From contig NZ_JAPQFJ010000006.1 of the NCBI RefSeq assembly GCF_026738875.1, positions 1 through 64,000 of the forward strand: a stretch of 64,000 nucleotides of DNA. Direction: 5' to 3'. A model generated the notes under the pieces. The model worked only from the letters and a program-made list of their open reading frames with translations. It searched no databases and was not told the DNA's origin. A program made the translations under genes and the position numbers. This stretch comes from Clostridium brassicae. Lineage in GTDB: Bacteria > Bacillota > Clostridia > Clostridiales > Clostridiaceae. The first letter of the stretch is position 1. Every line of letters begins with the position of its first letter. Of this stretch, positions 10,850 to 29,735 are shown piece by piece.

Positions 10850-10887
10850 ATTTCCAATTATCCATATAATTATAGATGGTTTGGAAA
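10850..10887 (+). repeat. Left boundary dif-like site of the island
   Basis: ATTTCCAATTA (10850-10860), TCCATA (10861-10866), TAATTATAGAT (10867-10877), followed by TTGGAAA (10881-10887), which pairs with TTTCCAA at 10851. The core TTCC-ATTATCCATATAAT recurs in the same orientation at 29706, the right end of the island. It lies just beyond the 3' end of the recombinase gene, as expected for an attachment site. Confidence 0.6.
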
Positions 10888-10900
10888 ATGAGATAGAAAG

Positions 10901-11832
10901 CTAATTGAACATCAAAGCTAACGGGTTAGAGTTTACTGCAGATTGTAGTTGATGATCATCAATATGCGTATATATTTCAGTTGTAGCAACACTTTCATGA
11001 CCAAGGATTTGTTGTAGGGAACGGATATCTACTCTACCATACTTATACATAAGGGTAGCTGCTGTATGTCTTAGTTTATGGGTTGATATAGCTTTTGGGT
11101 CAAGCCCAGAAGAGATAACATATTTTTTTACAATATTTTGGATAGCCCTTGTAGTAATGCGGTTATTATTTCTAGATATAAATAAAGCATTATCAGAAAT
11201 ATTGATGGAACTTCTAATATTTAGCCAATCATTAATAGCTTTGTTAGCAGCAGGTGTTAGAAAAATTTTACGTTCTTTATTCCCTTTACCGACTACAGAT
11301 AAAATATCATTGTTTACTTGGTCTATGTTTAAGCTAACTAATTCAGATAATCTTAATGCACAATTAAGAAAAATAGTTATTAATGATCTCTAGGAGACTT
11401 TCTACATTCAAGTAATAAGCGAACAGATTCTTCTAAGGTAAGATATTTAGGTATTCGCTTTGGTAATTTTGGTGTTTCTAATTCTTCAGCAATATTATTA
11501 TCAATAACATGCGCTTTAGTTTTGAGATATTTCCAGAATTGTCGAATAGAAACTATTTTTCTTGCACGGGTTCCAGCAGAAGCATTTAATGTTTTTTGAC
11601 AATATGTAATAAAAGAATACATTTCATTAAGAGTAATAGATTTTATAAATTCTAAATCTACTTGAGAAAAGTTTTTGTTGATAACATTAATATTACGAGA
11701 ATCTAGAATATAACTGAAAAACATAAGTAAATCGGTACGATATTCCAAGAGCGTGTTTTCAGAACGATTTTTTATAACAGAAAGATAGCCTAGAGACTGT
11801 TCAATTAATGAACAAGTTTTATTTGATTGCAT
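10901..11832 (-). pseudogene. Xer-like tyrosine recombinase/integrase, frameshifted
   Basis: The N-terminal half runs from the ATG at 11832 (GAGGTG ribosome site) to a stop near 11380: a SAM-like core-binding domain with NTLLEYRTDLLMFFSYIL. The catalytic half continues in a shifted frame to the TAG at 10901 and holds CALRLSEL (first Arg), HKLRHTAATLMYKYG (His-x2-Arg), LGHESVATTEIYTHI (His and nucleophile Tyr). Restoring one T in the CATTAA run near 11381-11386 rejoins RDH with LITIFLNCALRL, giving about 310 residues, the usual XerC/D length. The extra helix of integron integrases is not visible. It is divergent from the row of plus-strand genes that begins at 11926 and is flanked by a dif-like site, so it is the probable mover of the island, now inactive unless the shift is an assembly error. 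Confidence 0.8.
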
Positions 11833-11925
11833 ATTTAACACCTCGGTAGGTATTATTGACATAAATAATATGGAATAAACAGTGAAAGTTTTTTTGAGGT
11901 AAATAACGATTGGAGGTACCCATAA

Positions 11926-12642
11926 ATGAAATCGCAATTATACCTATACCACGATTTAAGAAAAAAATATACTAGGGATTTAAAACAAATAAAAGAACTG
12001 TTTTTTGAGAGAATTCAGCCCATTTTCTCAGACGCAGAAAAAGAGGCAACTGCGTACCAGAATCAGCTATGGGATAATCTAATGAATCAGCCATGTTACG
12101 ATGAAGAAAGTATAATTGATCCCTCAAATTTTGTTGAAACAGTTCAAGAAGCTGGTTTTGAGAAGTACGAAATACTTTCTTTAATGCAGTATCGGAATAT
12201 CAGCATATGGATATGTTGCATGTGTCAAGTATGGGAACAACAGCTGTTTTCTTTCATATATCATGAAGCTCTAAGTGAAGGAATTAAATATGCTGAGTCT
12301 GATTTGAAACGGGGCTTTGCGTTTTCAAAATATGTATTTGAATGGCATCAGCAACCATTTGAAACACTTGCTTGCTGGCCAAAGATAAAAGAATTAAGGG
12401 CCCTTGTAAATGTAATTAAGCATTCTGAAGGTGATTCAGAACAAAAACTTAGGAAAATTAGACCGGATTATTTTGTGCATGATACAGGAATTGATAAATA
12501 TGATCTGTTGTCGCTGTACCATTCCACGCTGTTGGAAGCTACGTTACAAATAAAAGAAAAAGATCTTGTTGAATATTATGATGCTCTTATTGCATTTTGG
12601 AATGAACTGCCTGAGCGGATGTATACGAAGGATGAACTTTGA
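11926..12642 (+). CDS. Uncharacterised helical protein, first gene of the island
   Basis: A 238-residue soluble, helical protein. Notable stretches are MQYRNISIWICCMCQVWEQQ and ELRALVNVIKHSEGDSEQKL; the second (LVNxIKHxEG) recurs, as I recall it, in uncharacterised proteins of defence islands, but I cannot name the family. An Arg...His pair is present, yet the spacing (R, seven residues, H) does not fit the usual HEPN RNase motif. A GGAGG lies seven bases before the ATG at 11926. It follows the divergent recombinase by 93 bases and precedes an Abi-like nuclease by 90, so the two may form one unit. Confidence 0.65.
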   Translation: MKSQLYLYHDLRKKYTRDLKQIKELFFERIQPIFSDAEKEATAYQNQLWDNLMNQPCYDEESIIDPSNFVETVQEAGFEKYEILSLMQYRNISIWICCMCQVWEQQLFSFIYHEALSEGIKYAESDLKRGFAFSKYVFEWHQQPFETLACWPKIKELRALVNVIKHSEGDSEQKLRKIRPDYFVHDTGIDKYDLLSLYHSTLLEATLQIKEKDLVEYYDALIAFWNELPERMYTKDEL

Positions 12643-12732
12643 AGTTTAGCTAAGTGATTTTGAGTTACATGAGTCTTTCTTTCATACACATTAGGCAAAT
12701 ATGTCTTATTTGTTTTATGTAGAGGTGATTAA

Positions 12733-14067
12733 ATGAGTGATACAAGCGATTTGATGAATGTTATTGTAGATTATATTAAAGGATATAAGGATTATAATGT
12801 ACCAAGCGTATGTAAAAAGTATAATATTGAGTGTGATAGCAATTTAGATCCTATGAATAGCAGGAGAGTTTATATTGAAAGTGGGTTAATAAAAATTTCT
12901 TTTAGTAAGCTACGGGAACTGGCTAAAACAATTATATTAGAAGAGTGTGATCCTGTTTTTGTTAAAAAGGTTGATCCATATTTGAATGATAATTTTTTTT
13001 CTATCTCTATGATAACAAGACGGAAAATCATTAATTGGCTGTCAAATCAATCGTTAATTGAAGGAAAGTTGCGTATTGATGAGATGCTTTCTTTATCATG
13101 GAATTTAGAGTGTATACCATCTTCTTATGGACATAAAAATGCTAATGAAGATATACTTCAACATATGGTTAGGAATGATGATTTGAGTTACAAAGAAATG
13201 TTTGAAGTTGTTTTAAGTGCTATGTATGTTTCAGATAAAAAGTTTATTGATTTGATTCAAACAATAGTTCATCCAAGAATTAGAGAAGGTTTTGAACAAA
13301 AAACGTATGTTGATAAATTAAATAATTTTTTAATAAAAGACGGATACAAACTAATTAATACTAAATCTATTTCAGGAGAACCAATTTTTACAGTTGAGAA
13401 AATTTCACAAGGAATAGATGGTAAAATAAAAAATTTGATTTTTGCTGCATACGGAACAAAACCAGATATTGTAATAGAAGACTCCTTAACTAATGATGTT
13501 AAAATTATCGGTGAAGAAAATAAATGCTTAGTTTATACATTGCCTATTTCAAATGAAGGCTTAAGTTGGCATGATTTAGTTACATGGTGGAACAAAGGAA
13601 ATGAAGAATATGAACTATGTGTGGAACAAGAACTGTTTAAGAGAATGGAGTTATCTTTAGATTCTGAACCAGAGAAGATGTTTATGAAAACTTATTATAA
13701 TAACTTACATAAATTAAAAAATAATAAATTACCCGCCCTCATTCCTCAAATATATTGCCACTATGATCCTAAATCTGCAAAAATGAGAAATGGGCAAATA
13801 TACGTTCATCAAAGAATGGATTTCTTGTTGTTGATTTCAAACAATAGAAGAGTTGTAATAGAAATTGATGGTAAACAACACTATTCTGTTGGTGATAAGT
13901 CTTCTCCTGAATTGTATAGTAAAATGGTAGAAGATGATAGAAAATTAAAATTTTATGGATATGACGTTTTTCGATTTGGCGGTTTTGAATTTGTAAACAC
14001 TTCTGAAATACAGAGAAAAATAGTGCAATTTATTCAAGACTTATACAAATATTACGATTTGATATAA
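12733..14067 (+). CDS. Abi-like protein with C-terminal DUF559/Vsr-type nuclease
   Basis: A 444-residue protein. The N-terminal part (VIVDYIKGYKDYNVPSVCKK, IECDSNLDPMNSRRVYIESG) resembles the AbiJ N-terminal accessory domains found in abortive-infection proteins. The C-terminal part has a clear PD-(D/E)xK core of the DUF559/Vsr kind: RMDFLLL with D363, VVIEIDGKQHY with E377, D379 and K381, then KLKFYGYDVFRFGGFEF. It probably cleaves DNA upon infection. It is preceded by GAGGTG and by a short gap bearing only a weak TTAGGC element. A DNA-repair-like Vsr role is unlikely given the large N-terminal region. Confidence 0.75.
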   Translation: MSDTSDLMNVIVDYIKGYKDYNVPSVCKKYNIECDSNLDPMNSRRVYIESGLIKISFSKLRELAKTIILEECDPVFVKKVDPYLNDNFFSISMITRRKIINWLSNQSLIEGKLRIDEMLSLSWNLECIPSSYGHKNANEDILQHMVRNDDLSYKEMFEVVLSAMYVSDKKFIDLIQTIVHPRIREGFEQKTYVDKLNNFLIKDGYKLINTKSISGEPIFTVEKISQGIDGKIKNLIFAAYGTKPDIVIEDSLTNDVKIIGEENKCLVYTLPISNEGLSWHDLVTWWNKGNEEYELCVEQELFKRMELSLDSEPEKMFMKTYYNNLHKLKNNKLPALIPQIYCHYDPKSAKMRNGQIYVHQRMDFLLLISNNRRVVIEIDGKQHYSVGDKSSPELYSKMVEDDRKLKFYGYDVFRFGGFEFVNTSEIQRKIVQFIQDLYKYYDLI

Positions 14068-14439
14068 GGGTTTTTGATTTATATTGTTGGTTATATACTT
14101 AAAAGTATATTGTACGTTGAAGATGAATTTAAAGAATTATTTATGTAAAAAATACATTTTAATCAAAGGATTAATTTTCTTGTAGAGTATTAGCATTTAA
14201 GAATAAATCTAGGAAATATAAGTAAAGAATACTATGAAGAAGAAGTAATAGGGAAGCTTAAAGAAAAAATATCAAAAGAGAGAAAGTTTGATTAATTCTA
14301 GCGCTAAACTGTAGAACGCTACTGTTTGAAAAATGATAAATAATAAAGATAAAAAATCTTAACACTTTTCCTTAGTCTAAATACCTATTAGGCTAATAAT
14401 GAGAATTTGAGAACAAAGAGGAAAACGGAGGATATTTTT
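14068..14439 (+). repeat. Intergenic interval with dif-like pair (14366-14405) and a gene relic
   Basis: A non-coding interval of 372 bases. A short relic (NLGNISKEYYEEEVIGKLKE, ending at a TAA near 14295) is visible without a start. The inter-gene element lies at 14366-14405: TTTTCCTTAGTCTAAATACC followed by TATTAGGCTAATAATGAG. Both halves contain TTAG-N-CTAA. Read on the minus strand, the second half is AATTCTCATTA, TTAGCC, TAATAGGTATT, matching the reverse sites of the other intervals. Confidence 0.55.
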
Positions 14440-17400
14440 ATGTGCAATGTTAAATCAGATATTGGAGCAAAAGCTGCTTGGAAAGGGTTCTCTTCTCAGA
14501 CAACCTATATTGCATATAGGTTAATGCTGTTAAATGATAAATATAACTTTTACCCAGAAAAAGTTGAAGATTTGATGGTTAAGAATGGTGATTCAATTGC
14601 TGAGCTAGTTCAAATTAAAAATTTGAGCAACAAGTTGGCTTTATCAAGTTTTTCACCTAAAGCTGATGATTCTTTTTTTAGAAGAGCATTAGCAAACAAA
14701 AAAAACAATGAAAGCTTTACTTTGAAAGTTGTATCATTTGGGGAGATTGGGGATGAGCTCCAAGGACTTATTAATAAAGATGAAGACCACATAAGTAGTA
14801 TCAAGGCTAAATTACTAAGTTACAAATACAGTGAAGAAGATATAAACTGGATATTTTCAAAATTATTGATTGAAAAAGTTGATGAAGCTGATTTAAAAAA
14901 GGAAATATACAAAGTACTGGAAGAGAAAATAGAAACGATGGCGGCACCTCAAGTAGCTTTTGATACACTGATTTGTTATGTTTCTGATCTTTCACGATAT
15001 TCAAAATATACTTCAAAGGAAGAATGGAACAAAAAAATTGATAATTATGTGAATGATATTGTTGCTATTAAAGGAATGTGCTCTCAGTATGGAAGAACTA
15101 TAATTAATTTAGCGGAGTATAAGACTCAACAATCCACTGAGGAACTCACTTCTGAATACCAATTAGGTGTAAATACTCATCCTCAGCACATAAGAAATAA
15201 TTTAGATATAATTAGAGATAAGTGGTTAGATAGAATAGAAAATTGTTTTCAAAGAAATAACAATGTTGTAATCATAAAAGGTGCCTCTGGACAAGGGAAA
15301 TCCTCTTTGGCATATAGGTATTTAATCGATAACTATCCTGAAAATTATGTTTTTGTGGTTGAAAAAGTTGTTGATTCGCAACAAGCTATTGATATTGTAG
15401 CAGCATTAAATGGACTATCTGTGAGTAAGCAAGGTAATAGCATTGTTTATATGGACGTTTATCCTTATGATAAAGAATGGTTATGGATTGCTGAAGAGAT
15501 TAGTAAACGGGGAATAAATATAAAACTACTTATAACAATTAGAGAAGAGGACTATAATCGATCGGATATTGATTTTAATAAGATTAGATTAGAAGTGATT
15601 GACCTTTATTTTGGAGAAGCTGAAGCAAGAGAAATATTTACAAAATACAACTCGCCGTATTTCCTTAATTTTGAACAAGCATGGGAAAAATTCGGTGAGA
15701 TAGGTCCATTTATGGAGTTTATGTACCTATTAAATCAATCAGATACTCTAACAAACAAACTTAAAGCTCAGATTAATAGAATTGCAACAAATGAGGAGAA
15801 CGCTGATGAATGGTTAAATGTTTTGCAAGTAATATGTTATGTTAGTAAGAATAATTTAAAGATTAACTTACAGAGATTGCTTAGTGATTTGACTTGTAAA
15901 CAAACAAGAAAAATGCTACAGCAATTTGAAAATGAATATTTAATCAAAATAAGCAGTGATAATAGGTATGTTGAGTGTTTACACGCGGTTAGGGCAGAAA
16001 TTTTATATGAAATTTTAATTAAAAACAGCCTGATGGATGAAGAAATTATGCTAATTCACTCGCTTAACTCAGTAGACGAATTTTGTCAATCAATGCTTGT
16101 TAGATACTTTTTTAATCATAGTAACATTGATGAGTTCATTGATAAACTAGATGAGATTAAAGTGTATTCATGGACTAGTTGTGCGAGCCTGTTGAGTGGA
16201 TTCTTGTGGTTAGATACTTATAAATTTTATAGAAAAAATAAGGAGAGCTTTAAACAAGGTAATAAGCTAACTTCAGATAATTTTACTATATTCCTAGGTG
16301 ACACAACTGGCTATTTAGAATTTGATTATTCAGAAATTATCAATCCACTCAGAGCAATTAATCCAGTTAGAGCTCAAAAGATAGAAGAGTTAATTAATAA
16401 TTTACCTGAAAATAAAATTAACTATCATTACACTGATTCTTTTATAAACAATATTAAAGCTCAATTAAATACACTAGATGTGTTATCAACAGATAATTTA
16501 TCTGAAGTTGGCTTTGTTTTATTTTGGCTAGCACAAAGGAATGTTTTTATAGAAGATGCATCGTATAAAAATATAGTAAATAATTTATCAAAATACTCAG
16601 TTGATAGTCTTTTGGATTTTCTAGTTGGAGTTCAAGTACAAAATAGAATGCAACTGTATGATACAATAGTAGAATATTTAGCTCCAATAATATGTAATAG
16701 ATATAGTATTATTCGATTGCAAGATGATAAGACCTGTATTGAAGCTGACTTTATTGAAAATGTTTTTGTAGGAAACTTGGAATCAAATAGCATTGGAATG
16801 AATGAAAGAGTCATGACTGTTGTAGGGATATTACGTAGATTATTCTTTAATAGGGAGAGCTATAAAGTTCAAGCTATAGGCACGGAGATTATAGAAGGGA
16901 TTAAAGTCCCAGATACACATAAAAATATATCTTCTAGAAATTTACCTTTAGTTTGGATTACGCAAATGAATGGGTGGATTATTAAACTTGACGATTATGA
17001 GAAAAGAACTGGCAACTGGAACGATTTTATAAGTGTGGTAAACACTGATCGCAACAGTATATTAAGTTTCGCCAAAATGGTATCTGATGCTATTTGTTAT
17101 TTTTATAAAAAAGAGGGGAGTCTTGAAAAATTCTTATCTTGTGAATTTAAGGAAAAACATAGATTGATGGAGCAAATATCAACTAAAGTTTATAAAACAC
17201 CAAAGTGTGCAAATGATAGGTATGGATTAACCTTAAGCAAAAATAAAGTAGACTTACCTGAGGTTCTTAAAATGTATAATGCAGGTGACTCAGAAAAAGA
17301 TATTACTTCATACGTAAATAAGTATAAAACTTCCTTTACAAATTTCTCAAACCAAATGGTTACTCTTGTGAAATCACGTCATGAGAGAGGTATAATAGAT

Positions 17401-18387
17401 GAGAATGGTAGACTATCATTGATTAATATAAATGCATCTGTATCTGACTTAGTTAAAATGCAAAAAAAATTTTCTGAATTATTAGTGCAGAATGATGGTA
17501 CTATAAACATCGAAGAGGAGTATGAGCAGTTACTTTTGCTATCTGTTATTTGGGACTTTTTATATAATAATGAAGTGAGAAAAGAAAGTTCTCTTTTATA
17601 TGACTGTAAGCAAATAATCAAGAAAAGCCGTAGGAAGATGAACAATTTCTTTAGTAAAATTTTTGGAACTTATACAAGTAGAGAAATTAATCGTGTTGGT
17701 TCAAGAATATATATTTCTTTAAATGCAGAATTAGCTGAAAAATTTTCTGAGCAATTATATCTTCAATTTAAAAAGGAATTTTTCGATACAAAAGTACTCT
17801 CGATTGGAAGTTTGTTTTTAGAAGACTTTGCTGATTCGATTATCGTTACAATACCATTAACTAAAGATACTATCGTTGGAGGATTTAAAATCGATCTTCA
17901 GAGTTTAATTAATTGCCAGAACGTTGAAAAATTTCTACTCTTTAGACAGCCCTTAGATAAAAGTGAGATAAGCGCAATAAATAAGAATTCCTTTGACGAA
18001 GAAAACGTAATGTTTAATTCATACAGAGTTATCGGTAACCTTAGCGCTTTATCATTATTTTATAATCACACTACTGCTGTTATAAAATATTTAAAATCAT
18101 TAAGCCAAGATACAATTATACAAGAAAAAACTTTTTATAGTTGGCAAGAAGAGGGTTCAAAATTTCATCGTCAGGTTCTACAAGAAGTTGTCGATTCGCT
18201 TGACAAATTAAAAAATATTGTTCCTGATCAGTCGTACGAATCATATCTGGTCATTCTAACGTTGTTGAATGATTATAAAGAAACAAGTGATAGCATTGTT
18301 TTAACAGAAGATATAGAATCTGTTAGTGATTTATTAAATTCAGCCATTGAATCAATTACAGAAGTACTGGAGAGTTGCACTTTATGA
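14440..18387 (+). CDS. Second STAND-type ATPase with DUF4297-like nuclease
   Basis: A protein of about 1315 residues. N-terminal AAWKGFSSQTTYIAYRLMLL, VEDLMVKNGDSIAELVQIKN (D44, Q58, K60) fits a DUF4297-type nuclease. Walker A is GASGQGKS at 281-288; SIVYMDVYPYDKEW is the probable Walker B region. The long helical C-terminus has no recognised domain. CGGAGGAT precedes the ATG at 14440, which is better than the TTG at 14407. The layout is the same as in the 1931-residue protein at 4790 but the sequence is unrelated beyond motifs, so two independent nuclease-STAND sensors flank the recombinase region. It is probably an anti-phage abortive-infection protein. Confidence 0.75.
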   Translation: MCNVKSDIGAKAAWKGFSSQTTYIAYRLMLLNDKYNFYPEKVEDLMVKNGDSIAELVQIKNLSNKLALSSFSPKADDSFFRRALANKKNNESFTLKVVSFGEIGDELQGLINKDEDHISSIKAKLLSYKYSEEDINWIFSKLLIEKVDEADLKKEIYKVLEEKIETMAAPQVAFDTLICYVSDLSRYSKYTSKEEWNKKIDNYVNDIVAIKGMCSQYGRTIINLAEYKTQQSTEELTSEYQLGVNTHPQHIRNNLDIIRDKWLDRIENCFQRNNNVVIIKGASGQGKSSLAYRYLIDNYPENYVFVVEKVVDSQQAIDIVAALNGLSVSKQGNSIVYMDVYPYDKEWLWIAEEISKRGINIKLLITIREEDYNRSDIDFNKIRLEVIDLYFGEAEAREIFTKYNSPYFLNFEQAWEKFGEIGPFMEFMYLLNQSDTLTNKLKAQINRIATNEENADEWLNVLQVICYVSKNNLKINLQRLLSDLTCKQTRKMLQQFENEYLIKISSDNRYVECLHAVRAEILYEILIKNSLMDEEIMLIHSLNSVDEFCQSMLVRYFFNHSNIDEFIDKLDEIKVYSWTSCASLLSGFLWLDTYKFYRKNKESFKQGNKLTSDNFTIFLGDTTGYLEFDYSEIINPLRAINPVRAQKIEELINNLPENKINYHYTDSFINNIKAQLNTLDVLSTDNLSEVGFVLFWLAQRNVFIEDASYKNIVNNLSKYSVDSLLDFLVGVQVQNRMQLYDTIVEYLAPIICNRYSIIRLQDDKTCIEADFIENVFVGNLESNSIGMNERVMTVVGILRRLFFNRESYKVQAIGTEIIEGIKVPDTHKNISSRNLPLVWITQMNGWIIKLDDYEKRTGNWNDFISVVNTDRNSILSFAKMVSDAICYFYKKEGSLEKFLSCEFKEKHRLMEQISTKVYKTPKCANDRYGLTLSKNKVDLPEVLKMYNAGDSEKDITSYVNKYKTSFTNFSNQMVTLVKSRHERGIIDENGRLSLININASVSDLVKMQKKFSELLVQNDGTINIEEEYEQLLLLSVIWDFLYNNEVRKESSLLYDCKQIIKKSRRKMNNFFSKIFGTYTSREINRVGSRIYISLNAELAEKFSEQLYLQFKKEFFDTKVLSIGSLFLEDFADSIIVTIPLTKDTIVGGFKIDLQSLINCQNVEKFLLFRQPLDKSEISAINKNSFDEENVMFNSYRVIGNLSALSLFYNHTTAVIKYLKSLSQDTIIQEKTFYSWQEEGSKFHRQVLQEVVDSLDKLKNIVPDQSYESYLVILTLLNDYKETSDSIVLTEDIESVSDLLNSAIESITEVLESCTL

Positions 18388-18412
18388 TAATAAAAGTGTT
18401 TTGTATAAAATA

Positions 18413-18496
18413 ACTTCCTATTATTCATAAAATTGGACATGTTATATTTATAGTAATTAGGCTAATAATGTACAGCTAATATGGATAATAGGAAAA
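18413..18496. repeat. Paired inverted dif-like sites between genes
   Basis: Forward site: ACTTCCTATTA (18413-18423), TTCATA, AAATTGGACAT (to 18440). Reverse site on the minus strand: TTTTCCTATTA (18496-18486), TCCATA (18485-18480), TTAGCTGTACA (to 18469). The outer arms TTCCTATTATTCAT and ATGGATAATAGGAA pair at 13 of 14 positions. TTAGGCTAATAATG (18457-18470) lies between. This is the clearest two-site element of the series. Confidence 0.7.
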
Positions 18497-18621
18497 ATTA
18501 AATTTAAGAAATGTAGTGCTAAAGCTTAAAATAAACTAGCTATGATTTAGAATTATGTAGAAAATGCTTAAATAATTTTGTTACATTAGAATCATAAATA
18601 TTAATTGTGAGGTGTAAAAAA

Positions 18622-19953: not shown

Positions 19954-20005
19954 ACTTGCCATTATCCATATTAGGTACAAGCTTTTAATATCTATAATGA
20001 GAAGT
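19954..20005. repeat. Paired inverted dif-like sites, short form
   Basis: Forward: ACTTGCCATTA (19954-19964), TCCATA, TTAGGTACAAG (19971-19981). Reverse on the minus strand: ACTTCTCATTA (20005-19995), TAGATA, TTAAAAGCTTG (to 19978). The two 28-base sites overlap by four bases (CAAG), so the whole forms an imperfect hairpin whose spacer bases do not pair. It is the 5' part of a 124-base duplicated leader. Confidence 0.7.
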
Positions 20006-21017: not shown

Positions 21018-21058
21018 GAAAAATTAAGTATATTTAAATGATTTGTAGGTAAGAACCC

Positions 21059-21087
21059 AAGAAAAGAGTTTTTAATACTCTTTTCTT
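21059..21087 (+). terminator. Hairpin terminator after the Mrr-like gene
   Basis: AAGAAAAGAGT (21059-21069) and ACTCTTTTCTT (21077-21087) pair perfectly around a seven-base loop; the T-run is part of the arm. It ends the cassette before the next site element. Confidence 0.65.
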
Positions 21088-21114
21088 CAAATTACGAGAT
21101 GTTAATATTTTTAA

Positions 21115-21151
21115 TAATCCTAATCCACATTAGGCTAGTAATTAGAAGTTA
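21115..21151. repeat. Dif-like inter-gene element
   Basis: TAATCCTAATCCACATTAGG then CTAGTAATTAGAAGTTA. On the minus strand it reads ACTTCTAATTA, CTAGCC, TAATGTGGATT. CCTAAT and ATTAGG form a short hairpin. Downstream homology to the element at 27654 extends about 60 bases (TATTTAAAAAGTGT-GTC). The remainder of the interval up to 21367 is AT-rich with no ORF. Confidence 0.55.
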
Positions 21152-21367: not shown

Positions 21368-23407
21368 ATGAGAAAACTCATTACCATAATGAAAATTCAA
21401 ATTTCTTTATTTTCAATTTTTATGTTTGGTATAATGATACAAAAGTTAAATTTAAAATTTATAAATTTATACGGAGTAAAAATACCAATTGATTATAATC
21501 AAATATATACATTGTCTATGGGGCTTTTAACAATCCATGCTACAATATCCATTTTAGTATTAGCTATTTATCAAATTACTTTAACATTAAAAAATGAAAA
21601 AGTTAATATTTCCAATTATTATAACTACATTTTTTTAAAAAAAAAATTAGTTTTATTTTATAGGTTCTACGAAATATTTATAATAATTTTAGGTTCTATA
21701 TTTATAAACATTTTTTTTGCTTTGACCAATAATCTATCAGCACTAATTTCAACACTTTGCTTATCAACTATTCTAATAGTTACTTTATTTTATAAGACTG
21801 TAAATATAATAAGTGATGAGAGAAATTTGAGAAATGGAATTTTAAATAGCATCAGTAGTGATTTTCTTAGTCTTTTAAGTAAAGAAATGACCCCAAAGAT
21901 CAATGTGTTTGAAGAGAATGAATTAATAAAAGTATTTGAAGAACACAGTCATATATTATTTACAGCGATAAATGATATAAAACTGTATAAAGAAAAGAAA
22001 GAAATAAAAAAAATTAAGGAAACTTTTGATTTTTTAATAAGATTTAAAATAAACCAAAAAGATAATTTAGAGTATAAGTTTCTTACTAAACTAAAGAAGG
22101 TATCAAATAATAGATACAATTTTCATGAATATAAGGAAATTTTTATTCTGCTGCATGATGGTTTTTTAAAATATTTTGTTTTTAGTCTACATGAAGAATA
22201 TGAAGAGGGACTTATCATACTGTGGGAAGAGTTGAGAAAGTATGAAGATTTATTTTTTAAGCTTAATAGTTTCGATAGTAAATTCTTCGATAAAAATACT
22301 ATGTATGATAATTATGATTTAATAGAAAGAATAATCGAACCTTATAAAAATGAACATCTTGTAGTAGTTGTAAGAATTGATGATGAGGAAATATCTGATA
22401 ATTATGACAAAGTACGTAGTTTAAAAGAAAGAATGAAAATCTTAAAAAAGATAAATTGGGAACAGTTAAATAGTTTCAGTTATTATCATATATCTAAAAA
22501 AATAATTACTTACTTATTTTACGGATTAGATAGGAATAAATCAAAATACATATTGGAGAATTTGGGTTTTATACTTGATATGGAATTAAAGGGTAATAAA
22601 ATAATAAAAAATGAGGAATATGTAGATTTTTATACTGAGTACATCTTAAAAGTGATTGATTTTAATAAGGAAAATCCAGAAGAACATATATATATTCACA
22701 ACTGCTTAACACATATTGCATATCATTGCTGCAGAGAGAGAAAAGAAATAATAATTGGAATAGCATTGAATTTAATCAAAAATCAACATGAAAAGCATCT
22801 TTATGTAATAGTTGAGTATTTACAGAAATATCTTAGTTATGAAGATACAAGTGATATTTTTATGTATATTATCTTCTTTTTATTTGAAGAATATTTAAAA
22901 AATAGCAACAAAGAGGCATATCAATATAAACAATTAATGGAATATAAAATTAAGCATCATGTTAGTAAATTTGATAAGAATCCCATTATGTCTATATATG
23001 AATTAATAAATAATAGGAAGATAATGAAACTAATAATTGATAAAGAAATTAGTAAAATAAATATTAATACAGATGAAGAATACCTATCATCTCTTATAAA
23101 ATTTTATGTTTATTATATTAGTATGTATGATGAAAAGGCAATAAGTAATTATTTGGTAAAAATTAAAAATGACTCTGAGAAGGTATATATTTTATTAAAA
23201 AATGTATTATATGAGAAAGAATTAATCGATATACTTAAAGAGATTAGCTCATGGTGTAGTGGGGATGTACTTAAACAAGATAATTTAAATTCGAATAATA
23301 TTGAAGTTAATTTAAGCCAAGTAAAACATGCTTTTCAGAAAGTTGAGAGTAACCCACAGAGAAATTTAAATAAATCTAAAAGAAAGAGAAATGGTTCTAA
23401 AAAATAA
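21368..23407 (+). CDS. Membrane-anchored protein with large helical cytoplasmic domain
   Basis: A 679-residue protein. Hydrophobic segments lie at residues about 5-25, 47-70, 100-122 and 123-145 (ISILVLAIYQITL, IFIIILGSIFINIFFAL, ALISTLCLSTILIVTLFY), followed by roughly 500 charged helical residues and a lysine/arginine-rich tail (NKSKRKRNGSKK). No catalytic motif is recognised. A GGGAG precedes the ATG. As a single gene between two site elements in an island full of nucleases it may be a membrane-acting abortive-infection effector, but this rests on context alone. Confidence 0.6.
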   Translation: MRKLITIMKIQISLFSIFMFGIMIQKLNLKFINLYGVKIPIDYNQIYTLSMGLLTIHATISILVLAIYQITLTLKNEKVNISNYYNYIFLKKKLVLFYRFYEIFIIILGSIFINIFFALTNNLSALISTLCLSTILIVTLFYKTVNIISDERNLRNGILNSISSDFLSLLSKEMTPKINVFEENELIKVFEEHSHILFTAINDIKLYKEKKEIKKIKETFDFLIRFKINQKDNLEYKFLTKLKKVSNNRYNFHEYKEIFILLHDGFLKYFVFSLHEEYEEGLIILWEELRKYEDLFFKLNSFDSKFFDKNTMYDNYDLIERIIEPYKNEHLVVVVRIDDEEISDNYDKVRSLKERMKILKKINWEQLNSFSYYHISKKIITYLFYGLDRNKSKYILENLGFILDMELKGNKIIKNEEYVDFYTEYILKVIDFNKENPEEHIYIHNCLTHIAYHCCRERKEIIIGIALNLIKNQHEKHLYVIVEYLQKYLSYEDTSDIFMYIIFFLFEEYLKNSNKEAYQYKQLMEYKIKHHVSKFDKNPIMSIYELINNRKIMKLIIDKEISKININTDEEYLSSLIKFYVYYISMYDEKAISNYLVKIKNDSEKVYILLKNVLYEKELIDILKEISSWCSGDVLKQDNLNSNNIEVNLSQVKHAFQKVESNPQRNLNKSKRKRNGSKK

Positions 23408-23492
23408 GAAGTATGCTCTTTCAATGAACTATATTTTAAAATTGTGACATTCATTATATATTAAAAGTAAAACTATTCAAGACAATGTGTTA

Positions 23493-23535
23493 AATTCCCA
23501 TTATCCATACTAGGTACAAGCTTTTAATATCCATA
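23493..23535. repeat. Paired inverted dif-like sites, short form (second copy)
   Basis: TTCCCATTA, TCCATA, CTAGGTACAAG forward and, on the minus strand, ACTTCTCATTA, TGGATA, TTAAAAGCTTG. It is nearly identical to 19954-20005. Confidence 0.7.
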
Positions 23536-23621
23536 ATGAGAAGTTGGTTAATTAGTTAATATTATTTTGATTAAGTGAGATTTTACAGGAGGTAATTATA
23601 TTGGGAAACATAATAGTTAAA
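23498..23621 (+). repeat. Duplicated leader, copy 2
   Basis: Counterpart of 19959-20082 (7 differences in 124 bases). Here the TTG at 23601 opens an uninterrupted gene, which shows how the frameshifted copy 1 was probably read. Confidence 0.8.
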
Positions 23622-24083
23622 GATGTTGAGGAAAATAATTTATCTTATATTAGTTATCCGAAAGATAATACTGTATATATTCTTGCAAGTCGAGAAGGTA
23701 AAGGTGAGAATATTGAAAGTTTTACAAGTGAATCTTTTGATTTTTATAAATATATTAAGAATTATAAAGATGATATTGATATAGAGTTGTACTCAGATAG
23801 CAACGAAAAAAATATTCGAATACTTCATTCAAAAGAAATATGGTTACCAATACTATATTTTGTATTGCATGATGTAAGTTTACCTTTGACTATTAATTAT
23901 GTTTTTGATTATTTAAAACATAAATACGGAAATCAGTTAAAAGAAGATAATATAATTCATTTTTGTGCAGTAGTAGAAGATAGAAAAACTGGTAAAAGAA
24001 AAGAAATCAAATATGATGGTCCAGAGAATGTTTTTAAATCAAATTTCGATAAAATAGATATTACAAAAATTATGGGTGATTAA
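23601..24083 (+). CDS. Hypothetical protein, first gene of a two-gene cassette
   Basis: A 160-residue acidic protein started by a TTG after GGAGG. Noted stretches are YISYPKDNTVYILASREGKG and IWLPILYFVLHDVSLPLTIN. No family recognised. It ends two bases before the SEC-C protein gene, so the two are surely co-transcribed and probably act together, possibly as an effector/immunity or sensor/effector pair. Confidence 0.6.
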   Translation: MGNIIVKDVEENNLSYISYPKDNTVYILASREGKGENIESFTSESFDFYKYIKNYKDDIDIELYSDSNEKNIRILHSKEIWLPILYFVLHDVSLPLTINYVFDYLKHKYGNQLKEDNIIHFCAVVEDRKTGKRKEIKYDGPENVFKSNFDKIDITKIMGD

Positions 24084-24085
24084 TA

Positions 24086-24925
24086 ATGAATGTAGAATAC
24101 AAAATGTTAAATATGAAATTTAAATTACTTTATTATTATGCTAATCGAAATTTATATAATGAACTTATGCAATTATTGAAAGAATTTATTGATATATCTA
24201 AAAAAATAAAAGAAAAATTTATCAAAGAACGTAATGAAGAACAAGCTAATAGTTGGTATTTGCATGAAATATACTTTGAAATGTTTAAATTTTATGGACA
24301 AACATTAAAATTAATAAATAATAATGAATTTATTGAATCGTGGAATCAATTGCAAAATGCATTGGATTGCTTGGAAATTCTCGAAAAATTTGAAGATGAT
24401 TACACTCTCCCTGATTTATTATTTTTTAAAAATCAGTTAATTGAATTAGAAAAATTATATACTTTTAGAGTATTTTTTAGCGTAGGAGCTATTTTTAAAA
24501 GTATTAAGTGTTCAATATGTGGTTATCAGGTATATGATATACGTTGTAAACATATAACTGGACAATTATATATGGGAAAGTTAGCACAAAGAGTTCTTGC
24601 TGAGGCTGTCTTAGATGAAGTATCAATAGTAACAAATCCATATGACAAAAGGTGTATAGCTATACCAGAAAATGGATATGAAAACTCTCAGTTCGAAATT
24701 CTAAAAATGTTTATTTCAAATCATAAACATATTTTATTATGTTTTAAAGCTACAGTTTACATTAAATATAAAAAAGAAGTATTAAGTAGAAATGTCCAGT
24801 GTACTTGCGGAAGTGATAAAAAATATAAGTATTGTTGTGGTTCTTTAGACAAGAGAAAATATAATCATTTACATATTGATTTTTTAGATATTCATAAACT
24901 AAATGATGAGTTTTGCTTTGATTAA
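24086..24925 (+). CDS. Zinc-binding protein with C-terminal SEC-C motif
   Basis: A 279-residue protein. The first 135 residues are helical. CSICGYQVYDIRCKHITG (C142, C145, C154, H156) looks like a zinc knuckle. Near the end CTCGSDKKYKYCCG (about 239-252) is a textbook SEC-C zinc motif, which mediates protein or ribosome contacts in SecA and many stress proteins. It is preceded by a 160-residue partner gene with a two-base gap. Such zinc/SEC-C proteins are common in defence islands with unknown roles. Confidence 0.7.
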   Translation: MNVEYKMLNMKFKLLYYYANRNLYNELMQLLKEFIDISKKIKEKFIKERNEEQANSWYLHEIYFEMFKFYGQTLKLINNNEFIESWNQLQNALDCLEILEKFEDDYTLPDLLFFKNQLIELEKLYTFRVFFSVGAIFKSIKCSICGYQVYDIRCKHITGQLYMGKLAQRVLAEAVLDEVSIVTNPYDKRCIAIPENGYENSQFEILKMFISNHKHILLCFKATVYIKYKKEVLSRNVQCTCGSDKKYKYCCGSLDKRKYNHLHIDFLDIHKLNDEFCFD

Positions 24926-25352
24926 GACAATGAATTTAATTTTATTCTTACTAATTGAGGTGAATTACATAAAGTATCAAAAGTATACTTTGATAAGTAT
25001 AGTTATATAATTGAATATTGATTTGTGTATGAAATGTAATGAGAGGAATAAAAATTTCGTGATACATTGTTAAATAAAGTTTTTGCAATTATCCATATTT
25101 GGTACAAGTCCTAATATCTAATAATGTATAGTTAAATACATATAGTTGGTATTTATTGTTGAGTAAAATTAGAATGAGTTGCGGTTAAAAGAGTAGAAAA
25201 TGATTTATAAAGATAAATCATTTTCTAGAGTTTAATGGTGATCCTCTCATTCATCTGTCTTTTATAGTGATAAGAGGATATTCACTACACTTGTCTTGAA
25301 TACCATAGTTAGTCAAAGTACATAAAAATATTCGATAGTTGAGGAGGATTAT
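24926..25352. other. Intergenic interval with site element and hairpins
   Basis: No ORF. It contains a near-palindrome around 24973-24993 (TATCAAAAGTATACTTTGATA without its last base is symmetrical about GTATAC), the dif-like pair at 25081-25126, and a perfect 14-bp hairpin at 25195-25226 (AGAAAATGATTTAT, loop AAAG, ATAAATCATTTTCT). The last part, GAGGAGGATTAT before 25353, is the ribosome site of the HNH gene. Confidence 0.5.
25081..25126. repeat. Paired inverted dif-like sites
   Basis: Forward: TTTTGCAATTA (25081-25091), TCCATA (25092-25097), TTTGGTACAAG (25098-25108). The reverse part CCTAATATCTAATAATG (25110-25126) mirrors it. The inner GGTACAAG is shared with the copies at 19971 and 23511. 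Confidence 0.65.
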
Positions 25353-26101
25353 ATGAACGATAAAATTTGCTATTGGTGCGGTGAAAAAGCTACTTCAGAG
25401 AGCATGTTCCGCCTAAATGTTTGTTTCCAGAAAATAAAGATGTAGGTAATATATTAAAGCAATCATATAGGGATAATTTAATTACTGTTCCTTCTTGTGA
25501 CAAGCATAATAGTAAGAAAGCACATAATGATGAATATTTAATGGCATGTTTAAGTGGTAGAGTAGGTAACAATTCTGTAGCATATATTCATAATAAGACT
25601 AAAGTTAAGCGTGCATTGGAAAGAAACACTTCTTTATATAAAATAGAAAAAGATGATGTATTAAAAATTGCTAATAAGAGTTTTCCTATTCAGTGTGTTA
25701 CTGTAGATAATTTAAGACTAATACAGTCTTTTGAAGCTATAGCAAGGGCATTGTATTATTATGAAAAAAATAAAATTTTTATAGGTGAATGCACAATGGT
25801 ATCAGATATATTTATTGATTGTAATGATAAACGGAGTGCATATTATATGAAGCAAATGATAGCACTGATTGAAAAGGAGCAAATAAGCTGGGAAACAAAA
25901 GTAAAGGGAAGTAACAGAGATGTATTTGCCTACCAGTTTAGTCCTATGGACGGATTTAAATGTCAAACATTAGCATTAACCTTTTATAAAGGAACAAAAG
26001 TCTATGTAGCAATGTCAGAAATGGACAAAGAGCTTAAAAAGAAAACAAAACCACAATTCGATTTTCTCATTGATGCAATTTTAGGAGATTATCAAGAATA
26101 A
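25353..26101 (+). pseudogene. HNH-type nuclease, one-base frameshift in the HNH start
   Basis: ATG at 25353 (GGAGGAT site) gives MNDKICYWCGEKATS, then runs out of frame. Adding one A in TTCAGAGAG near 25396 restores TSREHVPPKCLFPENKDVGN, the EHVPPKCLFP signature of a well-known HNH subgroup, and joins the open frame that continues to 26101 with VPSCDKHNSKKAHNDEYL. The restored protein is about 249 residues with zinc-like CxxC at the start, and would be a DNA endonuclease. As written, the gene cannot make full-length protein. Confidence 0.7.
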
Positions 26102-26348
26102 TTGATGGGTGGGCATTTAAAAGAATAAAACCATGGTTAGATGCCTTGCCAAGCAATAAATTGGTAGAGAATATATAAATTGATGGGAAAATGAAGAAGT
26201 AGTAGTTGAAGAATATCAGTAATGGAAAAAGGTAGTGTGTATTTGCTTTACATAACAACATGTTTACGATACCGTCTTAGTAACCGAGTCGGTGTCGTGA
26301 ACAAAAATCGTTATAAGATATTAAAGAAAGTGAAGTGGAGGAGTTAAA
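26102..26348. other. Interval with gene relic and hairpin
   Basis: A relic frame reading DGWAFKRIKPWLDALPSNKL follows the HNH gene. At 26262-26302, GTTTACGATACCG and CGGTGTCGTGAAC pair over 13 positions (two wobble pairs), with a nested ACCG-AGT-CGGT. This is the one boundary of the island where I see no TCCATA-type site, so HNH and FRG genes may share a cassette. Confidence 0.45.
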
Positions 26349-27650
26349 GTGAAATATAAAATTCGCTCAGTTGCAGAATATCTTTCATTAATTGAGCAAA
26401 AGGGATTAACAAATTATATTTTTAGAGGTCAGAATGAACCATATTGGGGAATACAGGCAAGTGGATTCAGGCCTTATATGGGAAGTTGGTCAACTGATAG
26501 GTTTTATGACTTAGATCAAATGACTACGGATTTTTATAATAAAGTTACTCGACATCTCACAGAAGAAGAGAAGAGGCACTTTCTCGCTTATTCTCAACAT
26601 CACGGCTTACCAACAAACTTAGTTGATTTTTCGTACTCACCATTAATAGCATTATTTTTTGCGTGTTATGGAAAATCTAGTCCAAAGTTTTCACTTGAAG
26701 AACTTGTTAATAAAAATGCTTATGAAGCTATTGAAGATTTAAAAAATAACAAGTCTACACAAGGTATGTTAATCCATAATATTATAAATCTACTACAAAA
26801 AGATTATTATTCACAATATTCTCAGATTTACCTTATTTTAAAAGAAAAACTAATAGATGCTACAGAAATCATGGTGGAATATAACAATAAGAATATATTT
26901 GATTTGATTGAGAATAATAGCAATGTACAAGTTTGGCTATGCAATGAGCTTGAGAAAAAATTATTTAAAAATCCAGACCTAGTAACTGAGTGGTTAACTA
27001 ATATTATCACAGTATACGAAGAGAATAAGATTTCTGTTATCGAAGGAGTTCATCAACTACCACCTTTATCAGATGAGAAGCATAAGAATGATTTAAAAAA
27101 ATACAAAATAAAAATTAAAAGCCAGAAATCTAAGAATAATTCAATCAAAGAATTATTCATTTATCTAAAAGATAAAATTTATGATGAATCTATCACTCAT
27201 GCTGACATGTATCATATGGAATCTTATCAGATTGAATATGCAAAAGTTGAGAGCTTGGCTGCTAAAATATATTTAGCTTTAATAATCAATATGATTCAAG
27301 TAATTAAGAATTCTCATTTGAAAGTTTGGTTTAAACTAGACGTGTACTTTTCATATAATCCGCCAGAAATTTTCGATAGAATATCAAATCAAAAGGGAAT
27401 TTTCATTAATCAACCTTATGTTTATGAAATTGATGATATGTATAATTATGGGAACTTAATTTATCAATATATCGAGCCCGATATTACTATCGAAGTTGAT
27501 GAATACAATAAGATACTTGCGGAGTTAAATTATTTAGGAGTTAATTCTGGAAGTGTGTATAACGATCTTGATAATGTAGCAAGAGCTGTGAAGTACACGC
27601 ATGATCAAAATCTTTACAATTACAAAGTTAAAGTTGAGAAATTTGACTAA
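26349..27650 (+). CDS. FRG-domain protein
   Basis: A 433-residue protein started by GTG after GGAGGAG. Residues about 1-100 hold the FRG signature: NYIFRGQNEPYWGIQASGFR, then FLAYSQHHGLPTNLVDFSYS, LIALFFACYG. FRG domains occur widely in mobile elements and defence islands; the biochemical role is not established. The remaining 330 residues are helical with no recognised domain. It may act with the preceding, now frameshifted, HNH protein. Confidence 0.75.
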   Translation: MKYKIRSVAEYLSLIEQKGLTNYIFRGQNEPYWGIQASGFRPYMGSWSTDRFYDLDQMTTDFYNKVTRHLTEEEKRHFLAYSQHHGLPTNLVDFSYSPLIALFFACYGKSSPKFSLEELVNKNAYEAIEDLKNNKSTQGMLIHNIINLLQKDYYSQYSQIYLILKEKLIDATEIMVEYNNKNIFDLIENNSNVQVWLCNELEKKLFKNPDLVTEWLTNIITVYEENKISVIEGVHQLPPLSDEKHKNDLKKYKIKIKSQKSKNNSIKELFIYLKDKIYDESITHADMYHMESYQIEYAKVESLAAKIYLALIINMIQVIKNSHLKVWFKLDVYFSYNPPEIFDRISNQKGIFINQPYVYEIDDMYNYGNLIYQYIEPDITIEVDEYNKILAELNYLGVNSGSVYNDLDNVARAVKYTHDQNLYNYKVKVEKFD

Positions 27651-27653
27651 TCA

Positions 27654-27712
27654 GGTTCCCGTTATCCATATAACTGGACAAGTTATGACTATACCCATTA
27701 GTCTAATAACAA
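27654..27712. repeat. Paired inverted dif-like sites
   Basis: Forward: GGTTCCCGTTA (27654-27664), TCCATA (27665-27670), TAACTGGACAA (27671-27681). On the minus strand: ACTTCTTGTTA, TTAGAC, TAATGGGTATA. It aligns with the element at 18413 (shared TTGGACA-like and GTTAT...TATA blocks) and its right side with 21115. Confidence 0.65.
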
Positions 27713-27952
27713 GAAGTCAAAGTATATAAAGATTTTATTTAAAAAGTGTCGTCGATATAAAAAACTGTAAAATAAAGAGTGTTTGTATAATATGCAGACA
27801 AATAGTAATTTATTTAAGATATGGTTAGAGGAAGCAAGGATAAAGTTAAGGGACTAGAAGATGAATTTGATAAGGATATTTTACATAATAGAACATATAA
27901 TTTTTGATAAATATTATATAATGGGAATATACATGAGAGGAGATAATAGAAA

Positions 27953-28762
27953 ATGTTATTAGGATTATTCAAAAAGAAAAATAATATAATATCAAAATCG
28001 CATGAACAGAAAATTGAAGCTCAATCAAAATCTAAAATTTATGATCAAATGTTGAAATTTGAACAAGAATTTGAAAGAAAATATAACTTAACAGAAAAAG
28101 TTGACTTCCAATTACTAAATGATAAGCTAGATAGAGAAAGCGTAACTCAATTTATAGATCAGAAATGTTATGTAAAGGTTGGAATAAAAGACTATGAAGA
28201 TCAAGAGTATTTAACAGATAAGCAATGTAATCACATCAGAAATACAATAGTACATGAACTTATACATTGTAGGAATTATTTTAGTTTATCAGTAGATACC
28301 AGAGTAAAAATAAGCCAAAATCTTAGAACAATAAATCATTGGGCTAGAATGCTTTTAGATGAATATAGTGCATATAAAGAAGCTAATGAAATATATCCTG
28401 AAACAGTGGATGAATTAAATTGTTCAGAGGGAAAATTGTTTACTGCTTTTAAACGAATGTATGCAGGAATATTAATTAAAGCAACTGATGAACAATTTTT
28501 TGAAGCATTTTATGATAATTGCAGTGCATTGATAACAATAAGTATAGTTAATAAGGAGTTTCCAACTATAAAAGTAGAAAATAGAAATTACAATAGAGCT
28601 TGTGAAAGTTTTCTTAATGCTCTCAAAGAAGCCTATTTAAAAATGCCTTTGAATTTTGATGAATATAAGGTATTGGGAGAAGAGTTGCTTAAATGTTTAA
28701 GCAGTATGGCTCCTAAAAATGAAATAGAAACATTTAAATTAAATACACATATAAAATTTTAG
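27953..28762 (+). CDS. Zincin-type metalloprotease-like protein
   Basis: A 269-residue soluble protein. TIVHELIHCRNYF contains HELIH (H101, E102, H105), the HExxH zinc-protease core, and MLLDEYSAYKEAN about 32 residues later supplies candidate third ligands (E137 or a following glutamate). No signal peptide or membrane segment, so it acts in the cytoplasm. Cytosolic zincins of this size include ImmA/IrrE-like regulators and protease effectors; the subfamily is not assignable. An AGAGGAG precedes the ATG. A 28-codon relic starting near 27824 lies in the 5' gap. Confidence 0.65.
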   Translation: MLLGLFKKKNNIISKSHEQKIEAQSKSKIYDQMLKFEQEFERKYNLTEKVDFQLLNDKLDRESVTQFIDQKCYVKVGIKDYEDQEYLTDKQCNHIRNTIVHELIHCRNYFSLSVDTRVKISQNLRTINHWARMLLDEYSAYKEANEIYPETVDELNCSEGKLFTAFKRMYAGILIKATDEQFFEAFYDNCSALITISIVNKEFPTIKVENRNYNRACESFLNALKEAYLKMPLNFDEYKVLGEELLKCLSSMAPKNEIETFKLNTHIKF

Positions 28763-28916
28763 TAATAAACCTAATATGGTACGTCATAAAACAAATTCCA
28801 ATTTAAGGTTGAGTATTATAAATAGTAAATTTATCAAGTTGTTTAGTATTAAATTATGAAGAAAATTTATAAACTATACAATGTACAAATCAGAATTTAG
28901 ATAGGAGGAGAACAGA

Positions 28917-29567
28917 TTGTATTTGTGGACGGTTCAAAGAAAAGAAGTAATAGAAACACTTATAAAAATTGGAGAATATTATCCTGATATAGAGAAGTCA
29001 AAAGGCTATAGTGAAATGAAACTTGTCTATCCAACATTACTGGAAAGTTTTAATGTTTTGAATAATAGTTCTTCTAAAGGGATAATATTTGGGTTTTATA
29101 AGATAAATGGCGGAAAAATTTTTGAAACTATAGAAGATTTATATAACTATTTGTATAACAATCAAGAAGTATCTGCTGCGTTTAATTTTTGGAATGCTAA
29201 TTCCACGATTTTGCGTATTAAAGTAGATGATAATATAAATATTATGCCTATGGAATTTAATGATATTATAAAACTAAGCATGGGTAAAACCAAGGATATT
29301 GAAAGAATTTCTATGCTATATAACTCAATAAATGATTTTAATGCCGATATATATAACATCATAACCTATATGAATAAAGGTAGGAGTAACCCGTATACAT
29401 TATTTAAAAGTTTTATAGAGGGGCATTATCCATACTTAAAGATAGAAAATATTTTAGGAGTATATCCCAACTTAGATTTACAAACAAGTATGAAAGAGCA
29501 TGATATTAAATTATTTAATTTATCTGATGAATCAAAGAAATTAAAAGAATTAATTTGCAATCATTAG
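28917..29567 (+). CDS. DUF3841-like protein
   Basis: A 216-residue protein started by TTG after GGAGGAGAACA. The opening YLWTVQRKEVIETLIKIGEY and a later LLESFNVLN match the way DUF3841 proteins begin (LWTxQ...L...G). The function is unknown. It is the last gene of the island before the right boundary site. The gap before it (28763-28916) carries only a weak element, TATGGTACGTC at 28775, resembling one site arm. Confidence 0.55.
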   Translation: MYLWTVQRKEVIETLIKIGEYYPDIEKSKGYSEMKLVYPTLLESFNVLNNSSSKGIIFGFYKINGGKIFETIEDLYNYLYNNQEVSAAFNFWNANSTILRIKVDDNINIMPMEFNDIIKLSMGKTKDIERISMLYNSINDFNADIYNIITYMNKGRSNPYTLFKSFIEGHYPYLKIENILGVYPNLDLQTSMKEHDIKLFNLSDESKKLKELICNH

Positions 29568-29703
29568 ATAGATGTATTTGAATACAAATTCCAATTTGTT
29601 TGATGGAACAAAACTAGTAAAATGTGTGGTTTAGTTAATGAATATTTTTCTTAATTTGTGACATTTTCCATATTGGGGATGTACATAATATCTATATTTA
29701 TTA

Positions 29704-29735
29704 ACTTCCCATTATCCATATAATAGGAATGGGAA
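29704..29735 (+). repeat. Right boundary dif-like site (direct repeat of the left one)
   Basis: Same order and orientation as 10850-10877: TTCC, ATTATCCATATAAT. Together they bracket 18.9 kb with the recombinase at one end, as expected of attL and attR. Confidence 0.6.

Follow-up and report, generated by a model that had tools for sequence, protein, structure and literature searches.

How does a row of genes, set apart by short inverted sites and lying around a Xer-type recombinase gene, come to be assembled and exchanged in a clostridial chromosome? This question is raised by a cassette array in 64,000 nt of Clostridium brassicae DNA (contig NZ_JAPQFJ010000006.1 of assembly GCF_026738875.1, positions 1-64,000), hereafter called the window. 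A sequence-only reading had described positions 10850-29735 as an integron-like or pdif-like row of cassettes with a recombinase of ordinary Xer length, and this description was supported by cassette exchange between genomes and by the association of the sites with the recombinase. We consider that the locus is a chromosomal cassette array working like an integron and made of Xer-type parts, with a probability of roughly 0.7. Each cassette would start with a right-type half-site (L'-spacer-R'), carry one or a few genes in the same orientation, often behind a conserved leader, and end with a left-type half-site (R''-spacer-L''), so that an inverted site pair would form the junction of neighbours. 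Recombination among these sites, or between one of them and a right-type entry site, would be the work of a dedicated Xer-type tyrosine recombinase, and whole cassettes would be lost, gained or moved as the outcome. Such entry sites lie beside some recombinase genes and also alone elsewhere. The catalyst is probably the recombinase clade described below; its genes are often flanked by a left-type half on one side and a right-type half on the other. We infer a circular intermediate and the strand chemistry of the exchange; the sites may act either as folded single strands, as in integrons, or as double strands, as in dif modules.

Paired and oriented sites

The 28-bp dif-like sites of 11+6+11 design that had been proposed were indeed over-represented, with 16 occurrences of ACTTSCCATTATYCATA at up to three mismatches in the window against 1.75 expected, and none of 100 shuffles gave an equally high number. 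In the organism's own genome the exact pattern was found only at 19954 and 29704, and it was absent from the controls. A complete site consists, in order, of R'' (ACTTCCCATTA), a spacer, L'', a short linker, L', a second spacer and R' (TAATGNGAAGT). The spacers of the left half (R''/L'') were TCCATA, TTCATA, TGTTTA and TTCTTA, and those of the right half (L'/R') were GGCTAA, TGTCTA and TAGCAA. The arms resemble those of Firmicute dif.

An inverted partner had been claimed for these sites and was present at 18413, 19954, 23493, 25081 and 27654, whereas 29704 and 10850 proved to be left halves only. Paired sites were also expected in most intervals between genes and were present there, but none was seen between the genes at 26102-26348 and 28763-28916, and the site before 12733 was a degenerate right half, recognised solely through comparison with a locus of a relative (L193). 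When the window and 40 loci of relatives were searched with the right half TTAGGCTAATAATGAGAAGT at up to four mismatches, 34 matches had the orientation of the array and 2 the opposite one, and two controls gave one match each. Since almost all matches had one orientation, the sites are directional relative to the genes. These sites are real, oriented and common to Clostridia.

The covariance-model search that had been suggested for the site pair also succeeded. The model (R1, built from 13 sites) gave 33 matches at E ≤ 1 in 41 sources of the recombinase clade, 13 of them training elements, and no match in 57 control loci with other recombinases, 26 of which were the relatives' best recombinase matches outside the clade. 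Matches were found in 24 of 206 genomes of the family under stricter filters, with which weak sites may be missed. With up to three mismatches allowed, 68 genomes of one genus contained the entry-site form TTCTTATAATGTCTATAATGGGAAGTT at 17 places, spread over 11 of the genomes, and the reversed control gave none. As a detector, the arms alone were too unspecific (136 pairs in 636 kb, against 37 in reversed sequence and 35 in 589 kb of other loci) and were thus replaced by the half-site and model searches.

A search for the host dif with a B. subtilis-like pattern gave two weak matches compared to three in controls. One site with its leader (window 27654-27812) had no match among 72,556 plasmid records, one site with leader had none in phages, and the right half had no exact match in IMG/VR.

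Whole-cassette differences between genomes

Exchange of cassettes at the spacers had been set as a test beforehand, and it was observed. An AbiH cassette was present with 97% identity over 1,088 bp in two arrays of different species with different neighbours (L217 and L219); the identity began at about CATTAGGCTAATAAT and ended exactly after ACTTCCCATTATTCATA (R'' plus TTCATA). In one genome (contig G149:C1), the same cassette lay at two loci about 3.3 Mb apart (L182, which is the same locus as L056, and L202), with 95% identity over 760 bp from the right half to R''. Moreover, at one locus in three related genomes (L217, L275 and L276, from G059, G070 and G060, respectively), the contents differed between the outer sites. 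The left flank was alike up to the first right-type site TGTCTATAATNGGNAGTT or a variant of it, and the right flank of L217 and L275 resumed at the last site, ATTA/TTCATATAA. The AbiJ cassette of the window recurred in L193 (88.9% over 1,375 bp), starting inside the right half that is degenerate in the window, and L045 and L189 had 1.6 kb in common (94.5%) up to the end of TGTCTATAATGGGNAGTT, after which they were different.

All loci were compared with each other, without L080 (a duplicate of L062). From the shared segments we dropped those of L182 and L184 (the same loci as L056 and L070), those under 150 bp or under 80% identity, those overlapping the recombinase and overlapping duplicates; 5 of the 64 left were dropped for touching locus ends, which gave 59. 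Of their 118 query-side ends, 14 lay no more than 25 nt from a site. Random placement, repeated 2,000 times, gave 1.96 such ends on average and never more than 8. Genomes differ by whole cassettes with edges at sites, and these comparisons suggest that cassettes are gained and lost as units at the sites, as in integrons.

Leaders and tails are common to cassettes with different genes, and some breakpoints lie at the end of a leader, as would be expected if ordinary homologous recombination between short repeats (the sites, the 120-nt leaders or the 130-nt tails) had replaced site-specific exchange. We regard this as improbable, since edges were also found at sites with no leader or tail shared beyond them (the right edge of L217/L219, L045/L189 and L217/L275), and since the pairing and orientation of the sites and their association with a recombinase clade argue against it.

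The sequence-only reading had itself raised the possibility that promoters or terminators, conserved along with their genes, account for the elements. They are intergenic, and promoter-like boxes occur near entry sites (one of them, TTCCAT-N17-TATAAT, read by eye before one entry site, points into the array). However, the right half plus leader preceded 19 different first open reading frames (ORFs; manual count), and sites bounded swapped contents at one locus. This explanation, already contradicted by the exchange data, deserves hardly any weight.

The recombinase clade and related systems

The recombinase gene of the window had been placed at the left end of the row, divergent to the cargo. 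It is divergent and Xer-like, but it is split by a frameshift (11380-11937 and 10904-11389). A site pair at 4466-4511 and a NACHT/STAND-like cassette lie further left, so the gene seems to stand inside the array; the array reaches left to about 4466, and position 10850 is not its end. Intact relatives from the clade have 311 aa. The frameshifted copy is thus probably inactive, unless an enzyme acts in trans or the break is a sequencing error.

In searches with NCBIfam models, the catalytic piece from the window scored 147 bits for XerC and 71 bits for IntI, both below cut-off. Two intact relatives scored 211 and 204 bits with the XerC model (cut-off 335), and 84.1 and 79.5 bits with the IntI model TIGR02249 (cut-off 265). 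The spacing of the catalytic R and H residues, which is larger in IntI, was 91 aa in the intact 311-aa relative and leaves no space for the IntI insertion. None of eight genomes of the genus had an IntI over the model cut-off. According to PMC9668308, IntI has an additional domain around patch III; the spacing and model scores of the clade recombinase gave no sign of such a domain.

A scan of genome contigs for the recombinase gave 73 loci. In a tree restricted to open frames of at least 230 aa, and not fully settled, the rows with at least 62% identity formed one clade (21 of 84 rows, support 100/100). The neighbouring group consisted of clostridial Xer-type enzymes, joined weakly (83/50), and full-length comparison of host Xer with the clade gave about 45-53% identity. 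As judged from its sequence, the recombinase belongs to a Xer-type clade and not to IntI. Loci of the clade came from records named Clostridium, Desulfosporosinus, Desulfoscipio, Syntrophomonas, Sedimentibacter, Oscillibacter, Lachnospiraceae and others. Since L080 was 99.97% identical to L062 over 10,162 bp, which points to contamination or a mislabelled record, the Bacteroidota labels of some records were not relied on. In plasmid records, a recombinase piece was at most 51% identical. A 2.4-kb repeat of Oscillibacter ends beside the recombinase gene in L053 and was found whole or in part in L054 and L072.

Sites and recombinase occurred together. On the 3' side of the recombinase gene, 20 of 39 cases, including the window, had a left-type site with up to three mismatches no further than 300 nt away (controls: mean 2.6, maximum 6). 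On the 5' side, again within 300 nt, 8 of 29 cases had a right-type site when three mismatches were allowed (controls: mean 0.9, maximum 4) and 13 had one when four were allowed (controls: mean 1.5, maximum 4). Among the 206 family genomes, 8 had a long clade recombinase match and 4 had both this and model matches (Fisher P 0.007).

Several results weigh against an integron-like array served by this clade. The window recombinase has no clear right-type site on its 5' side (7 mismatches), and 16 of the 29 cases, the window among them, have none at up to four mismatches. Four of the eight family genomes with a long clade match carry a stop or frameshift inside it. The sites had been expected always to stand beside the clade; this did not hold, since a clade recombinase or a fragment of it was present in 6 of 45 array-type loci and absent from the other 39 within the 14-19 kb taken per locus. 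Among the shared segments, 104 of the 118 ends were not near a site, for which shared flanks or inserted elements are partly responsible, and several segments ended at leader or tail repeats instead (L211/L213, L190/L203). In L276 the right flank resumed about 120 nt beyond the site. A clean empty site was not found (one flank each of two arrays; L123 compared to the window and L121), and swapped contents were found instead. The arms R'' and R' did not covary, so that the imperfect hairpin put forward earlier is unsupported as a conserved structure, and covariation was rejected as a proof of it. In 12 single-stranded DNA folds, four (18413 on the plus strand, 27654 on both strands and 29704 on the plus strand) were beaten by at most 3 of 200 shuffles, and only that of 18413 owed this to R''/R' pairing.

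The arrays without a recombinase resemble the recombinase-less clusters of integrons, yet leave room for host Xer. The array could consist of dif modules moved by host Xer, the clade recombinase being a mere passenger. The 11+6+11 dif geometry of the sites, the absence of the clade enzyme from most array loci and its rarity among the family genomes would fit this, as would the clostridial Xer-type enzymes that neighbour the clade, albeit weakly, in the tree. In pdif terms, a gene would then be a module with the R arms inside, and the inter-site linker a gene-less module of the other kind. However, clade recombinases carry sites at their own ends and co-occur with model matches, the site model found nothing in the control loci, and there are several sites per genome, unlike dif. 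We therefore hold control by host Xer to be somewhat unlikely.

It is also rather unlikely that the sites recombine by a true integron mechanism, as folded single strands with the spacer unpaired, like attC. This view could draw on the R''-spacer-L''-loop-L'-spacer-R' anatomy, on the fixed orientation of the right halves to the genes, on the existence of recombinase-less arrays and on the long site at 18413, whose plus strand folded via R''/R' better than 197 of 200 shuffles. It is opposed by the lack of R''/R' covariation and the weak R''/R' folding of the other sites tried, by the low IntI scores and short R-H spacing, and by nine places in which only 6 nt separate two good arms, the arrangement of a double-stranded dif site, some of these places being the right half of a longer pair.

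An integron-like array of Xer-type parts has counterparts among known systems. With integrons it shares oriented cassettes that meet in an inverted-pair site, a recombinase divergent to the cassettes, recombinase-less clusters (clusters of attC sites lacking integron integrases, CALINs), mixed cargo including defence genes and, possibly, in some of the loci, a site that separates recombinase from cassettes. It differs in the Xer-length recombinase that fails the IntI model, in the arms and 6-nt spacers, in cassettes on both sides of the recombinase, in a leader common to part of the cassettes and in the lack of covariation. According to PMC9024848, IntegronFinder 2.0 gave one complete integron and a few CALINs in Firmicutes, from which integrons are reported to be nearly absent. 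In the pdif modules of Acinetobacter plasmids, genes are likewise enclosed by 28-bp 11+6+11 sites of inverse orientation; the Xer-type geometry and the shuffling of modules are also common to both. In contrast to them, the present arrays are chromosomal, have one gene orientation and in some cases a recombinase gene, and their gene modules are successive, with a short linker between inverse sites, whereas in pdif C and D gene modules alternate (PMC13141974). Of the cassette ORFs, 121 of 124 had one sense, and neither C/D alternation nor plasmid carriage was found. Dimer resolution by Xer/dif and the integrative mobile elements exploiting Xer (IMEX) have in common with the arrays a recombinase beside clostridial Xer in the tree and, presumably, dif-like arms; the several sites per genome, and cassettes in place of a single integrated element, are different. 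The array is integron-like with dif-module geometry, and departs from each of the two systems in one defining point, the IntI-type recombinase of the one and the alternating plasmid modules of the other. No description of such a system was found in the literature searched, to which preprints and most subscription papers did not belong, so that absence in print does not follow.

We lean tentatively towards the view that Clostridia have an independently evolved integron, in which a Xer-type clade with its own entry sites and paired cassette sites serves swappable stores of defence and accessory genes. The clade in question is that of Clostridium, Oscillibacter, Lachnospiraceae, Desulfosporosinus, Syntrophomonas and others. 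If this is true, the parity problem of dif modules would formally be solved, since behind each gene module there would be a very short linker of the opposite kind, free of genes, and single genes could thus move with their orientation kept. Such a cassette system would account for the way in which clostridia put together and trade some of their defence genes and would give a convergent test of what an integron requires, and its sites would be a simple marker for finding new defence genes.

Layout, cargo and surroundings of the array

The array in the window contains the following features.

4466-4511, plus strand: paired inverted site, spacers TGGTTT and TGTCTA, right half TGTCTATAATGGGAAGT; opens the NACHT-gene cassette
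4790-10585, plus: STAND/NACHT-like protein, 1931 aa, cassette cargo left of the recombinase
10850-10877, plus: left-type site R''-TCCATA-L'', left half only, at the 3' end of the recombinase gene
10904-11389, minus: Xer-type tyrosine recombinase, C-terminal catalytic piece (Pfam Phage_integrase, E 1e-36)
11380-11937, minus: Xer-type recombinase, N-terminal piece in another frame (frameshifted gene)
11926-12642, plus: unassigned 238-aa protein without a Pfam match at E 0.01, encoded by the first gene beyond the recombinase
12683-12703, plus: right-type site in degenerate form, shorter than its counterpart in L193; alignment with L193 places the start of the AbiJ cassette here
12733-14067, plus: AbiJ-type gene (Pfam AbiJ_NTD3, E 1.7e-41; weak DUF559)
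14364-14407, plus: short paired site, right half with 1 mismatch
14407-18387, plus: 1326-aa cassette gene, possibly nSTAND-like by a weak match below cut-off (E 9e-4)
18413-18476, plus: paired inverted site, long form, with a further inverted half-site up to 18496
18607-19848, plus: 413-aa cassette gene, no assignment
19954-20005, plus: paired inverted site, 52 nt
20006-20082, plus: cassette leader, with its site 93% identical to 23492-23621
20136-21017, plus: 293-aa cassette gene, no assignment
about 21084-21149, plus: degenerate paired site, right half clear at 21130
21368-23407, plus: 679-aa cassette gene, no assignment
23493-23544, plus: paired inverted site, 52 nt
23601-24925, plus: cassette with 160-aa and 279-aa (SEC-C) genes
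25081-25132, plus: paired inverted site, 52 nt
25353-27650, plus: cassette holding a 433-aa FRG-domain gene (PADLOC candidate PDC-S15) and an HNH-like frame that looks interrupted
27654-27717, plus: paired inverted site, long form, 64 nt
27718-27811, plus: conserved leader of the last cassette
27953-29567, plus: last cassette, two genes (269 aa and 216 aa)
29575-29703, plus: conserved 3' tail leading up to the last site; tail plus site match two places in L037 at 80-84% identity
29704-29731, plus: terminal left-type site R''-TCCATA-L'', left half only

The claim that the cargo points one way was borne out, since all ORFs of at least 100 aa between 10586 and 29735 are rightward except the recombinase. 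At 25353-26101, the frame that opens at 25353 is not that of the ORF from 25421, and we read the two as one putative interrupted HNH-like gene; the ORF at 25421-26101, for which Pfam gave no match, is presumably HNH-like. The frameshifts in the recombinase (10904-11937) and apparently in this gene would reflect decay or sequencing error. A second kind of module edge, with AAATTCCAATTT ... AAATAGTAATTT repeats, was seen inside cassettes (window 28763-28916, L211 11053-11123 and L213 8080-8150), and shared segments also end at these repeats.

Taking a cassette as the stretch from a right-type site to the next site, we counted 73 cassettes in 40 arrays (L182, L184 and L080 left out), with a median length of 2.1 kb. 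Their ORFs of at least 90 aa ran with the array in 121 cases and against it in 3. The cassettes had been described as single-gene defence cassettes; 43 of the 73 had one ORF, and the others include multi-gene cassettes. The cassette proteins (116 of 124) were scanned for families with PADLOC and Pfam, and only the 25 commonest families per search were considered. These commonest families include AbiH, AbiJ, SIR2, ThsA-like, PtuA-like, GmrSD, kinase, ApeA and STAND, several of them resembling antiviral genes, and also acetyltransferases, Nudix, deformylase, permeases and a Cass2-like protein. Metabolic genes and proteins with no assignment thus lie between the sites as well. The term defence cassettes thus fits part of the cargo.

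Integron cassettes are mostly promoterless and read from one promoter, Pc; part of the present cassettes carry leaders. The leader of about 120 nt after the site was typified by window 27690-27811, and 31 of the 206 family genomes matched part of window 27690-27850, the site-near part being reached in 19 and only the promoter-near part in 12. In L189, a run of ORFs at 9654-15611, at least one of them recombinase-like by BLAST, is inserted in the array. This insert is 86.7% alike to a segment of L203 (about 11056-13510) that starts 9 nt after a site, and it resembles recombinase-in-trio elements.

Just right of the cassette array, at 32986-33736 on the minus strand, lies an array of clustered regularly interspaced short palindromic repeats (CRISPR) with 12 repeats of Rfam CRISPR-DR3, the sole Rfam match at the gathering threshold in the whole window; a stretch similar to this region is present in L122 of a relative. 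On the left, a conserved and apparently non-coding region (3852-4455) adjoins arrays and is 80-84% identical in pieces to L123; Rfam gave no match to a known RNA at 3600-4600 even at E 1. The genes at 128-4318 look by eye like replication genes of a prophage or of an integrative and conjugative element. Pieces of this region match the left flank of a different array (L121, G006) at 90-97% identity and flanks of the array in L123 (G005) at 73-85%. From these likenesses, arrays in this genus seem to be carried by, or to lie next to, one and the same element.

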